Assembly (NCBI RefSeq): GCF_902506165.1
Contig: NZ_LR733817.1
Coordinates: 4,139,937-4,203,936, forward strand
DNA: 64,000 bases
From: Bosea sp. 29B
GTDB taxonomy: Bacteria; Pseudomonadota; Alphaproteobacteria; Rhizobiales; Beijerinckiaceae
Direction of reading: 5' to 3'
Part shown: positions 13,698 through 19,096 of the stretch, one piece after another
How positions within the stretch are numbered: the stretch's first letter is position 1
Layout of the letters: each line of letters starts with the position of its first letter
Notes under the pieces: model-generated
What the model was told of the DNA's origin: nothing
Seen by the model: the letters and a program-made list of their open reading frames with translations, nothing else
The model's database searches: none
Translations under genes and position numbers: made by a program

Positions 13698-14309
13698 ATG
13701 AAGCTCTATGATGGCGGGCGCGCGCCCAATCCGCGGCGGGTCCGCATCTTCTTCGCCGAGAAGGGCGTGCCCTTGCCCGAACTCATCCCGGTCGACATCG
13801 CAAGGAAGGAGCACCGGACGCCGGAGTTCACCCGGATCAACCCGTCGCAGCGCCTGCCGGTGCTGCTGCTGGAGGACGGCACGGCGCTGGCGGAGACCAT
13901 CGCGATCTGCCGCTACATCGAGAGCCTGCATCCGACGCCGCCGCTGTTCGGCTCCGCCCCCAAGGAGGCGGCCCTGATCGAGATGTGGAATCGCCGCATC
14001 GAGCTCGGCCTGTTCTCGGCGGTTTCGGCCGTGTTCCGCCACGGCCATCCCGCGATGGCCGAGCTCGAGGACCAGGTGCCGGAATGGGCCGAGGCCAGCC
14101 GCGAGCAGATCGACGATCATCTCGTGCTGCTCGACCTGCAGCTCGGCGCCAATCGCTTCCTCTGCGGCGACGAGCTGACGGTCGCCGACATCACCGCCGG
14201 CATCGCCATCGACTTCATGAAGCCTTCGCGCATCCCGCTTCCGGAGGATTTCACGAACATCCGGCGCTGGCATGGCGAGCTCTCGGCCAGGCCGAGCTGG
14301 AAAGTCTGA
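13698..14309 (+). CDS. Glutathione S-transferase family protein
   Basis: 203 residues, starting MKLYDGGRAPNPRRVRIFFAEKG, where the usual catalytic Ser/Cys position reads 'APNPRR' (theta/zeta-type with a non-classical nucleophile). 'SQRLPVLLLEDGTALAETIAICRYIE' forms the glutathione site; the helical C-terminal domain holds 'RFLCGDELTVADITAGIAIDFM'. It is the first gene of an apparent operon: the next start is 2 nt after its stop. Its link to the three secreted paralogues downstream is unclear. Confidence 0.9.
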   Translation: MKLYDGGRAPNPRRVRIFFAEKGVPLPELIPVDIARKEHRTPEFTRINPSQRLPVLLLEDGTALAETIAICRYIESLHPTPPLFGSAPKEAALIEMWNRRIELGLFSAVSAVFRHGHPAMAELEDQVPEWAEASREQIDDHLVLLDLQLGANRFLCGDELTVADITAGIAIDFMKPSRIPLPEDFTNIRRWHGELSARPSWKV

Positions 14310-14311
14310 TC

Positions 14312-14776
14312 ATGCGCCTGCCGCTGATCCTGCTTGCTCTGATGGTCCCGCTCGCCGCGACGGCGATGGAGAAGCTGACCGGCGAGCAGATCAACCGCGC
14401 CTTCACCGGCAACACGGTCAGTGGCCGCTACACCGGCGGCGGCTTCTTCACCGAGTTCCACGACCCTGATGGGCGGGCGCTCGGCAACAATGGCTGGCAG
14501 GAGAATCGCGACGCCTGCTGGATCACCAAGGGTGATTCCGTCTGCTATTATTACGGCCCGCCGGGGGAGCGGACGACGCATTGCTTCACCGTCGAGCTGA
14601 CCGATAGGCTCTATATCCTGCGCAATCTCGACAATGGCCGGATCAATGCGGTGGCGACCATCGAGCTCGCCAATCCGCGCAACCACACCGACGGCGGCAA
14701 GCCCTGGTATTGCGACGGGCTGATCTCGCGCGGCCCGCAGGGGCCGCTGATGTCGCGACGCGTGGCGGCCTGGTGA
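14312..14776 (+). CDS. Secreted paralogue 1 of 3, DUF995-like
   Basis: 154 residues with a signal peptide (MRLPLILLALMVPLAATA). The mature part shares with its two neighbours a set of short blocks: 'LTGEQINRAFTGNTVSGRYT', 'FFTEFHDPDGRALG', 'RDACW', 'VCYYYG', 'HCFTVE', 'INAVATIELANP' and 'WYCDGLIS'. Four cysteines at matching places suggest two disulfides in the periplasm. The opening LTG...GNT block resembles DUF995 and related small beta-barrel proteins, a resemblance I hold loosely. The start is 2 nt after the GST stop, and the stop overlaps paralogue 2 by 4 nt. Confidence 0.8.
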   Translation: MRLPLILLALMVPLAATAMEKLTGEQINRAFTGNTVSGRYTGGGFFTEFHDPDGRALGNNGWQENRDACWITKGDSVCYYYGPPGERTTHCFTVELTDRLYILRNLDNGRINAVATIELANPRNHTDGGKPWYCDGLISRGPQGPLMSRRVAAW

Positions 14777-15246
14777 AGCGGTCCGGCAGGGTCGCGGCGC
14801 TGCTGGCGCTCTGCGTTTCGGCGACGAGCACGTTCGCGGTCGAGCGTCTGACCGGCCAGGAGATCCGCAAGCTCTTCGAGGGCAATACGGTCGCCGGCCG
14901 CTACAATAACGGCTTGCCGTTCAGCGAGTATCATCACCAGGACGGCCGCGCGACCGGGCATAACCGGCATGTGCAGAACACGGATGCCTGCTGGACCACG
15001 ACCGACGAGGCCGTCTGCTACTATTACGGCCCGTTCGCGACCCGCCGGACCTATTGCTTCACCGTCGAGCGCAGCGGTTCGCTCTATGTGCTGCAGACCC
15101 ATCGGACTGGCCGCATCAACGCTATCGCCACGATCCAGCCGGGCGATCCCGAGAAACATGCCGATAAGGCGCCGCCCTGGCATTGCGACGGCTTGATCTC
15201 GCAGGGCCTGCCGCCGTCGATCTCGTCGCGGCTCGCCTCGCAATGA
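14773..15246 (+). CDS. Secreted paralogue 2 of 3, DUF995-like
   Basis: 157 residues from a GTG overlapping the stop of paralogue 1 (GTGA). Signal peptide about residues 1-22 (ends 'ATSTFA'). The blocks are 'VERLTGQEIRKLFEGNTVAG', 'FSEYHHQDGRATG', 'DACWTTTDEAVCYYYG', 'YCFTVERSGSLYVLQ', 'INAIATIQPGDPEKHADK' and 'WHCDGLIS'. It is closer to paralogue 3 than to paralogue 1 (shared 'FAVERLTG', 'CWTTT', 'TYCFTVERSG', 'PGDPEKHADK'). A far upstream ATG in the frame lies inside paralogue 1 and is not used. Function unknown. Confidence 0.8.
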   Translation: MKRSGRVAALLALCVSATSTFAVERLTGQEIRKLFEGNTVAGRYNNGLPFSEYHHQDGRATGHNRHVQNTDACWTTTDEAVCYYYGPFATRRTYCFTVERSGSLYVLQTHRTGRINAIATIQPGDPEKHADKAPPWHCDGLISQGLPPSISSRLASQ

Positions 15247-15707
15247 GGTTTGCGGCGCTGCTGCTGCTCGGGCTCTCGGTCGCGGGGAGCGAGGCATTCG
15301 CCGTCGAGCGGCTGACCGGTGAGCAGATGCGCCAGCTCGTCGAGGGCAATACCGCGACCGGGCGCTACAGCAGCGGCGAGACCTTCAGCGAGTTCCATCA
15401 CGCCGACGGGCGGGTGAGCGGCTACAACCGCGATCGTGCAATGCCGAACCGCGATGCCTGCTGGACCACGACTGAAGATGCGATCTGCTATTATTACGGC
15501 CCGATCGAGACCCGGCAGACCTATTGCTTCACCGTCGAACGCAGCGGCACGCTCTATGTTCCGCGCAGCGTCGCCAGTGGCAGCATCATCGGCGCCTTCG
15601 CCATCCAGCCCGGCGATCCCGAGAAGCACGCCGACAAGGTGCCGGCCTGGTATTGCGATGGGTTGATCTCGCAGCGAAAGGGCCGGGGGCGGCTGGCCGG
15701 GCGATGA
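15243..15707 (+). CDS. Secreted paralogue 3 of 3, DUF995-like
   Basis: 154 residues with signal peptide MRFAALLLLGLSVAGSEAFA. It keeps the four cysteines and the blocks 'LTGEQMRQLVEGNTATGRYS', 'FSEFHHADGRVSGYN', 'DACWTTTEDAICYYYG', 'YCFTVERSGTLYV', 'IQPGDPEKHADK' and 'WYCDGLIS'. The tail is basic ('KGRGRLAGR'). Its ATG overlaps the stop of paralogue 2 and its own stop overlaps the glycosylase start, so all are coupled. It probably arose by duplication from the same ancestor as paralogue 2. Confidence 0.8.
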   Translation: MRFAALLLLGLSVAGSEAFAVERLTGEQMRQLVEGNTATGRYSSGETFSEFHHADGRVSGYNRDRAMPNRDACWTTTEDAICYYYGPIETRQTYCFTVERSGTLYVPRSVASGSIIGAFAIQPGDPEKHADKVPAWYCDGLISQRKGRGRLAGR

Positions 15708-16345
15708 GCGGGCAGGGGGACGATGCGCCGGAAGCGCTCGGCGATGTCCTCGTCGAATTGCGCGCCTGCCGCATTTGCCGGGACGAGCCGGTCTATCTGC
15801 CGCGCCTGCCGCACGAGCCGCGTCCCGTCATCCAGGCCGAGGCGAGCGCGCGCCTCTTGATCGCGAGCCAGGCGCCGGGCACACGCGTCCATGCCAGCGG
15901 CAGGCCTTTCACCGACCGCTCCGGCGACCGGCTGCGCGATTGGCTCGGCCTCGACCATGCTCGCTTCTACGACGCTTCGCGCGTCGCGATCGTGCCGATG
16001 GGCCATTGCTTCCCCGGGCTTGACGGAAAGGGCGGCGACCTGCCGCCACGCCGCGAATGCGCGCCGGCCTGGCGAAGCCGCGTGCTCGCTGGCCTGCCGG
16101 AGATCGAGCTCATCCTGGTGATCGGCCGCTATGCCCAGGCCTGGCATCTCGGTCCGAAGGCGGCGGCCGACCTGACGGCGACCGTCGCCGACTGGCGCAA
16201 TATCTTCGCCGGGGATCGCCGGCCGCGCATCCTGCCGTTGCCGCACCCCTCCTGGCGCAACAATGGCTGGCTCCGGAAGAACCCCTGGTTCGAGGCGGAG
16301 CTGGTGCCGGTGTTGCGGGCGGAGGTGGCGCGGCTGGTCGGTTGA
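15704..16345 (+). CDS. Uracil-DNA glycosylase family protein
   Basis: 213 residues of the uracil-DNA glycosylase superfamily. A cysteine pair opens it ('LRACRICRDEP'), then motif A 'LLIASQAPGTRVHASGRPFTDRSGDRLRDWLGL', 'IVPMGHCFPG' and the late 'ILPLPHPSWRNN' with His181, the position of the active-site His-Pro-Ser. It removes uracil or related bases from DNA. It is close to the small alphaproteobacterial subgroup rather than to classical Ung. The start overlaps paralogue 3, which is an odd partner for a repair enzyme. Confidence 0.85.
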   Translation: MSGQGDDAPEALGDVLVELRACRICRDEPVYLPRLPHEPRPVIQAEASARLLIASQAPGTRVHASGRPFTDRSGDRLRDWLGLDHARFYDASRVAIVPMGHCFPGLDGKGGDLPPRRECAPAWRSRVLAGLPEIELILVIGRYAQAWHLGPKAAADLTATVADWRNIFAGDRRPRILPLPHPSWRNNGWLRKNPWFEAELVPVLRAEVARLVG

Positions 16346-18146: not shown

Positions 18147-18377
18147 CTATCGCGCGAGAGCTGCAGCGAAGAGCTCCTCGCTCGAACGCGAACCGATGCC
18201 TCTGTTCAGGCCCTCGTCGACAAAGCGCTGCATGGCGATGATCTTGTCGGTGTGCGCCTGATCCCGTCGGATCAGGTCGCACACATAGTCGCTCGGGCTG
18301 GCATAGCGGCCGCTCTCGGTCTGGGCCTCGACCCATTCCTTCATCGAAGCCGGCAAGGACACGCTGATCGTCGCCAT
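18147..18377 (-). CDS. ParD-type antitoxin, without a ParE partner
   Basis: 76 residues: MATISVSLPASMKEWVEAQT, then 'SGRYASPSDYVCDLIRRDQ', the ribbon-helix-helix DNA-binding domain of ParD antitoxins, and a C-terminal toxin-binding tail. ParD normally neutralises ParE, encoded just downstream. Here the next 6 nt lead to the stop of the convergent map gene, so there is no room for parE. A GTG at 18383 overlaps the permease stop and is an alternative start, which would make it the last gene of the ABC operon. It may be a remnant, a decoy, or a regulator. Confidence 0.85.
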   Translation of the reverse strand: MATISVSLPASMKEWVEAQTESGRYASPSDYVCDLIRRDQAHTDKIIAMQRFVDEGLNRGIGSRSSEELFAAALAR

Positions 18378-18379
18378 CT

Positions 18380-19096
18380 TCACCGCAACGCCATGTGCCG
18401 CGTCAGCCTGAGCTCGATCCGGTCCCAGACCCGGCGGATGATCTCTGTCAGCGTGAGATAGATCAGCGCCGCATAGAGGTAGATCGACAGGTCGAAGGAG
18501 CGGGCGAAGGCGAGGCGTGTCGCGCCCATCAGGTCGAACAGCGTCACCAGAGAGGCGATGGCGCTTGCCTTGATCATCACGATCAGCTCGTTGCCGAGCG
18601 GGCGCAGCGCCAGGATCATCGCCTGGGGCAGGATCACCCGGCGCAAGGTCGCCCAGCGATGCAGGCCGAGCGCAAGTGACCCCTCGAACTGGCCGCGCGG
18701 GATCGACTGGATCGCACCGCGCAGGATCTCGGCCTGATAGGCGGCGGTGTTGATGGTGAAGGTGAAGAGCGCACAGTAGAACGGCTCGCGGAAGAACCAC
18801 CACAGGCCGATATCCTGCCAGAACAGCCGGAACTGGCCGAAGCCGTAATAGACAAGGAAGAGCTGGCAGAGCAGCGGCGTGCCACGGAAGAAAGTGGTGT
18901 AGCCGTTGATCGCGATCTGTGCCCAGCGCGGCCCGTAGAGCCTGGCGATGGCGAGACCGATCGCGAGCACGAAGCCGAACGCGACCGAGAGCACCACGAG
19001 CTCGAAGGTGAGCCACAGGCCGTTCGCCATCCGGCAGCCGTAGTTCTGCAGGACCTCGCTGCCGATCAGGTAGCCGGGATATTCGCACCAGTTCAT
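18380..19096 (-). CDS. Polar amino acid ABC transporter permease (HisM-like)
   Basis: 238 residues with five or so membrane segments and the EAA loop 'AAYQAEILRGAIQSIPRGQFEGSLALGLHRWATLRRVILPQA', which docks the ATPase. 'FFRGTPLLCQLFLVYYG' is the family's early motif. It forms the membrane channel with the adjacent permease for a cationic or polar amino acid or opine. The start overlaps the upstream permease stop by 4 nt. The C-terminus overlaps the possible GTG start of parD. Confidence 0.93.
   Translation of the reverse strand: MNWCEYPGYLIGSEVLQNYGCRMANGLWLTFELVVLSVAFGFVLAIGLAIARLYGPRWAQIAINGYTTFFRGTPLLCQLFLVYYGFGQFRLFWQDIGLWWFFREPFYCALFTFTINTAAYQAEILRGAIQSIPRGQFEGSLALGLHRWATLRRVILPQAMILALRPLGNELIVMIKASAIASLVTLFDLMGATRLAFARSFDLSIYLYAALIYLTLTEIIRRVWDRIELRLTRHMALR

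Follow-up and report, generated by a model that had tools for sequence, protein, structure and literature searches.

Three tandem genes in a 64,000-nt stretch of the Bosea sp. 29B genome (contig NZ_LR733817.1, positions 4,139,937 to 4,203,936; hereafter the window) belong to a real and conserved protein family that is uncatalogued in the libraries we searched and is new as a family. We call the genes and their products C1, C2 and C3. The family, the tandem structure, the order of duplication, the purifying selection and the positions fixed in individual paralogues were computed directly. The kind of protein is ordinary, being tandem small barrels that carry signal peptides; what stands out is a frequent GST-family neighbour and repeated independent tandem growth. 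We tentatively propose, at a little less than an even chance, that these are secreted calycin-type barrels that arose by tandem duplication beside a GST gene and use a shared set of residues to bind one or more small ligands in the envelope, with a specificity re-tuned between two paralogue types, 'first' and 'last'. The array and its flanking genes are as follows.

14312..14776, + strand: C1, 'first'-type paralogue, 154 amino acids (aa), ATG start; signal peptide by eye at about 14312-14365
14773..15246, + strand: C2, 'last'-type paralogue, 157 aa, GTG start; signal peptide by eye at about 14773-14838
15243..15707, + strand: C3, later duplicate of C2, 154 aa, ATG start; signal peptide by eye at about 15243-15302
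13701..14309, + strand: GST-family protein, 202 aa, first gene of the putative unit; Pfam GST_N_2 (E 2.6e-14) and GST_C_2 (E 6.8e-10)
15704..16345, + strand: UDG-superfamily (uracil-DNA glycosylase) protein, 213 aa; Pfam UDG (E 1.8e-23)

A tandem family outside the current libraries

The three genes are open and collinear, and their aligned products share identities far above chance in this genome (C1–C2 50%, C2–C3 63% and C1–C3 49%), as expected of the three tandem paralogues that an earlier note, made from the DNA alone, had described. The signal peptides it had reported are visible by eye, with A-x-A-type ends and no lipobox cysteine; each mature protein is of ∼15 kDa and has the four cysteines that it had called conserved, and which are invariant in 91 family sequences. 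The string PGDPEKHADK is indeed present in C2 and C3 and absent from C1. The same note had each gene overlapping the next by 4 nt: this is so at C1/C2, C2/C3 and C3/UDG, but the junction between the GST gene and C1 is a 2-nt gap. From the overlaps and the synteny, GST-C1-C2-C3-UDG may be a single unit; a sigma-70 consensus scan found nothing, and promoter and terminator scans were at chance level. The genome (6.33 Mb) has no copies beyond C1–C3 at E ≤ 0.01 with C2 as the query, and a profile of the wider superfamily described below recovers the same three at E ≤ 0.001. The closest named record to C1 is from Bosea lupini (99%; the window's own record was possibly left out).

No Pfam, NCBIfam or PADLOC family matches C1–C3 above cut-off, and the PADLOC (anti-phage defence) profiles match none of the five proteins (C1–C3, GST and UDG) at E ≤ 1. 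An alignment of 48 members (A1; C1–C3 and 45 relatives) gave six weak Pfam families, with best E values of 0.038-0.36 and at most four members each. Of 270 candidate relatives of C2, 239 pass E ≤ 0.001 (where the name gives the organism, it is Bosea), and no solved structure is related to it by sequence at E ≤ 10. A few candidate matches were rejected: DUF1816 for C2 (Pfam E 0.039, under cut-off, 19 residues only); an antifreeze-protein row for the profile A2 (E 0.0027, no single stretch passing), together with a chitinase row (E 0.2); and the same antifreeze protein for the superfamily profile A4 (E 2e-9, four stretches, the best at profile positions 10-51), which was set aside because the target is a tandem repeat and only the signal-peptide and helix end is covered. 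A further nine rows for A4 lie at E 0.38-2. In the literature we found nothing joining Bosea, GST and UDG, and nothing on periplasmic disulfide calycins of alphaproteobacteria (work on Bosea and lipocalins concerns other subjects).

Copy number, duplication and selection

The cluster is present in 33 of 37 genomes of the genus (own included; G025, G027, G030 and G033 lack it). Reading these loci gave two copies in 24 genomes, three in five (G000, G005, G007, G028 and G035), four in one (G013), six in one (G036) and one in two (G011 and G018). The 24 include G031 (locus L061), where a frameshift interrupts the second copy; this genome was excluded from the tree and the junction count. One additional remote superfamily match each in G011 and G004 was not taken as an array copy. 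Two genus members from a later sample have two copies (G341) and none (G406). In an even sample of the taxonomic family, 19 of 149 genomes match at E ≤ 1e-10, in eight of 43 genera, and across the order 20 of 297 match at E ≤ 1e-4, 17 of them weakly. One family member (L155:3347-4450, the same as L280:4444-5547) carries a Pro/Lys-rich C-terminal extension of ∼200 residues past the barrel.

A midpoint-rooted tree of 75 sequences separates a first-type clade (38 rows, support 100/96) from a last-type clade (35 rows, 100/97); two outgroup sequences sit beside the last type under this rooting, which leaves the root uncertain. C3 of the window falls in a clade of third copies from five genomes (100/100, stem 0.77), nested in a 12-row clade (99/95) that also holds C2 copies. 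This confirms that duplication was stepwise, as previously suggested: an old first/last pair in Bosea was followed by a C2-to-C3 duplication in one clade. In G013 and G036 the additional copies make up a first-type expansion of their own (with a program warning about long branches coming together there), so there have been at least two independent expansions. Outside the window, 34 of 39 array junctions are 1- or 4-nt overlaps (starts were chosen by script, and two of the five non-overlap junctions have no start found).

We also followed the earlier suggestion to compare the copies by the ratio of non-synonymous to synonymous substitutions (dN/dS). Pairwise values (Nei-Gojobori) are 0.05-0.26 over 15 orthologue comparisons of the three copies, and 0.04-0.21 over 15 comparisons of five neighbouring genes. 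The copies have thus diverged under purifying selection, perhaps slightly relaxed, with no pairwise sign of positive selection.

The superfamily, the predicted fold and the conserved residues

Beyond the family, superfamily alignments (A4, A6 and A7) lead to 646 proteins at E ≤ 0.001 of 2806 candidates; names and lengths were taken from the best 120, where the genus-level names are Hansschlegelia, Hoeflea, Aquibium and Methylopila, all alphaproteobacterial. The family compares with profiles from the remote matches at 99.5% (hhalign), 98.1% and 98.9%, and no Pfam family passes the threshold for 37 superfamily members (A6). No GST resembling that of the window was found in 15 superfamily loci (L093-L107), and in nine others no recurring neighbour was noticed, except for the alike surroundings of L068 and L069. 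In these two loci (L068:3890-4354 and L069:3995-4480, from G011 and G004) the superfamily member lies, by eye, beside RlpA-like and D-alanyl-D-alanine-carboxypeptidase-like genes; the superfamily profile finds no copy of this kind in the window genome at E ≤ 0.001. Remote members also occur as head-to-tail triplets, in an unclassified alphaproteobacterial metagenome-assembled genome (MAG) (L281:3392-4915) and a Robiginitomaculum MAG (L282:2536-4375), with no GST or UDG detected alongside.

The AlphaFold2 model of C2 (mean pLDDT 84.7) has an N-terminal helix followed by eight strands, and the model of a superfamily member has the same elements in the same order. The calycin/lipocalin-like arrangement (eight antiparallel strands in meander order with an N-terminal helix) is thus seen in predicted models only, with fold matches that are clear for the superfamily member and weak for C2. 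As far as the fold goes, the two models suit the earlier suggestion of a family of binders or inhibitors. The lipocalin family proper has a G-x-W motif at the first strand; it is not at strand 1 of C2 (residues 38-44, N-T-V-A-G-R-Y), and no Pfam lipocalin row was obtained for C1–C3 at E ≤ 10.

Conservation was counted in the 91 aligned family sequences, with positions given in C2 numbering. No variation occurs at C73, C82, C95, C138, G42, E52, G62, W74, Y85 and W136, and very little at H54, Y83 and G58. Strands 2 and 3 have a clear alternation of more and less conserved residues (means 4.10 versus 2.60 and 3.74 versus 2.72), as expected if a function is carried by one face; there is little such contrast on strands 1, 4 and 5, and strands 6-8 vary. 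From their spacing, C82 and C95 are likely to form a cross-strand disulfide common to the superfamily, a pairing that would place position 94 opposite 83 and 92 opposite 85; the other cysteine pair, C73–C138, probably anchors the C-terminal tail. Positions 92 and 94 are T and H in all 31 first-type sequences; among 35 last-type sequences they are R in 31 and Y in 33, respectively. Both positions also differ between tandem copies elsewhere; in G398, for instance, the three copies have H, F and Y at 94. The C2 and C3 clades are set apart by ten columns, each fixed for a different residue in the two, neither 92 nor 94 among them.

Neighbouring genes, proposed function and known systems

Pfam agrees with the earlier identification of the flanking genes as GST and UDG; the GST-family protein of the window has no NCBIfam equivalog above cut-off. 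Among 32 genus loci besides the window, all but L048 (from G015) have a detected GST-family gene (31 loci), and UDG is likewise detected in 31 (in L061 its frame is merged with a family gene). In G015 the frame upstream of the first copy (L109:60-1031) starts, by eye, like the first residues of the GST and is remnant-like, as if by an internal GST deletion. A set of 57 named loci was found with patterns from close relatives and overlaps the genomes of the other samples: 54 have a GST gene at most 70 nt upstream, UDG is detected in 37, and 16 have a GST gene and a single copy without UDG. Two of these 16 are Rhabdaerophilum (in this group, two genomes have UDG homologues on other contigs), and the rest are mostly MAGs labelled Beijerinckiaceae, Methylobacterium or less. 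A further 12 loci, all but one of them from other genera, include eight with GST and five with UDG; L160 and L161 have UDG without GST, and L155 and L158 have neither. With four of these 12 loci lacking GST, and none detected in G015, we toned down a near-obligate GST partnership.

UDG homologues are present in 70 of 101 genomes of the order at E ≤ 1e-30, and outside these arrays the space between GST and UDG is occupied by other genes or empty, so the presence of UDG beside the array says little. GST and UDG are adjacent without family genes in G025, G030, G033, G274 and G291, and in the rest of the order 16 of the 29 UDG loci read (the best-scoring besides the window's own) have a GST gene no more than 1.5 kb away. 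Eight GST-UDG slots are gene-sized: by eye, six (L168, L181, L184, L185, L189 and L191, from other families of the order) hold a metal-dependent-hydrolase-like gene with an HLHGDH motif, and two (L169 and L190) a Met/Gly-rich protein with a signal-peptide-like start. As such pairs occur elsewhere without the family, the array was either gained or retained in an old GST-UDG neighbourhood. We gave little weight to a functional partnership with UDG, given how widespread UDG is in the order and how much the content of the slot varies. Of the two neighbours on which the earlier note had drawn, GST is the more constant, yet it is not obligatory. Farther along the window, a ParD-like antitoxin is recognizable by eye at about 18147-18380 on the - strand (the last part of frame 18147-19088), with a methionine-aminopeptidase-like gene on one side and an ABC-transporter permease on the other; no adjacent toxin gene was noticed, and no search was aimed at one.

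In our proposal, C1–C3 would be exported, probably periplasmic, single-domain lipocalin-like beta-barrels, with a short helix and eight antiparallel strands in the predicted fold. In the envelope, each would bind one small molecule, or a narrow class of them, via E52, H54, N64, W74, Y83 and Y85, near-invariant residues that may line one pocket. The site would be shared by all copies and re-tuned between the first and last types through paralogue-fixed positions, including 92 and 94, which would adjoin Y85 and Y83. The barrels may act jointly with the GST. Two observations weigh against the proposal: there are exceptions to the GST neighbour (such as L155, L158, L160, L161, and L048 of G015), and nine columns in all distinguish first from last types, 92 and 94 being just two of them and 51 and 65 equally strictly fixed. 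A bolder version, which we regard as a long shot, is a two-compartment module in which lineage-tuned sets of one to six exported calycin barrels with one binding chemistry (E-H-N-W-Y-Y), the copies re-tuned at positions such as 92/94, work with a cytoplasmic GST-family enzyme handling the same reactive compound. If that were true, the superfamily, with its own triplets in remote Alphaproteobacteria, would amount to a large group of lipocalin-like receptors in bacteria that is so far undescribed.

Two other roles are, in our judgement, each unlikely, and to about the same degree. The first is that of periplasmic or secreted beta-barrel protease inhibitors like those of Inh/I38 (AprI, Brucella Omp19) or the potempins, with paralogues for different proteases. 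The inhibitor profile, which we take to be PF02974, gave no row for C1–C3 at E ≤ 10, nor for the members of A1 (48) or A6 (37) at E ≤ 1. The flanking genes, GST and UDG, include no protease, and a serralysin C-terminal domain has one partial match in the genome, far from the array. The superfamily model scores higher with lipocalin-like matches than with inhibitors (not clearly so for C2), and the low dN/dS values carry no arms-race signal, which is weak evidence. The second is that of envelope structural, folding or assembly proteins with no diffusible ligand (e.g. a first/last heterodimer). Single-copy forms (G011, G018 and the 16 loci with GST and one copy) indicate that a heterodimer is not obligatory, and the range of one to six copies also speaks against such a role.

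It is quite improbable that C1–C3 are simply DUF995 proteins, divergent members of an existing Pfam family (PF06191). Several Bosea relatives are named 'DUF995 domain-containing protein' in UniRef, and real DUF995 sequences compare with the superfamily profile A4 at 91% and with a mixed profile at 85%. However, the profile search that had been suggested returned no PF06191 row for C1–C3 at E ≤ 10 or for the 48 members of A1 at E ≤ 1, so that membership by the Pfam gathering cut-off was not found, and the whole window genome has no match at E ≤ 0.001. The profile does match in six of 121 genomes of the order (two barely over cut-off); in 14 control genomes there were 0 matches. The link between the profiles is indirect: family to DUF995 gives 20% directly and 48% through the larger superfamily alignment. 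A passage in PMC4653623 describes PF06191 as over-represented in root-nodule bacteria and limited in phylogenetic distribution, which concerns DUF995 and not C1–C3; otherwise the literature under the name DUF995 yielded unrelated work only.

The analysis defines a protein family and a wider superfamily of hundreds of proteins that are missing from the Pfam and NCBIfam copies searched, supplies a predicted fold for both and shows a frequent GST-family neighbour. The natural series of one to six copies, with invariant and paralogue-fixed positions mapped, is a tractable case for the division of labour among duplicated exported barrels.

Among known systems, the lipocalin-like Bacteroides structures 4i95, 4iab and 4gzv differ from C1–C3 in sequence (5-10% identity, no shared profile). 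Inh/I38 inhibitors (Omp19, LupI) and potempins are likewise small barrels, with a moderate fold match to the models, but share no profile match with C1–C3, whose array has no adjoining protease. DUF995 resembles C1–C3 in motif order by eye and, via the superfamily, in part of its profile, whereas five aligned DUF995 sequences have neither E-x-H nor C-Y-Y-Y; it is possibly a distant cousin of the family, not the family itself. The superfamily shares with C2 the helix and eight strands in the same order (in the predicted models), an invariant Trp and the cross-strand cysteine pair. Unlike C1–C3, most of its best 120 members are of 124-136 aa, and its consensus has neither a second pair of cysteines nor a W-x-C-D tail at the C terminus. 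This suggests that the two shared cysteines and the Trp are the old frame, to which the C73–C138 pair was added later.
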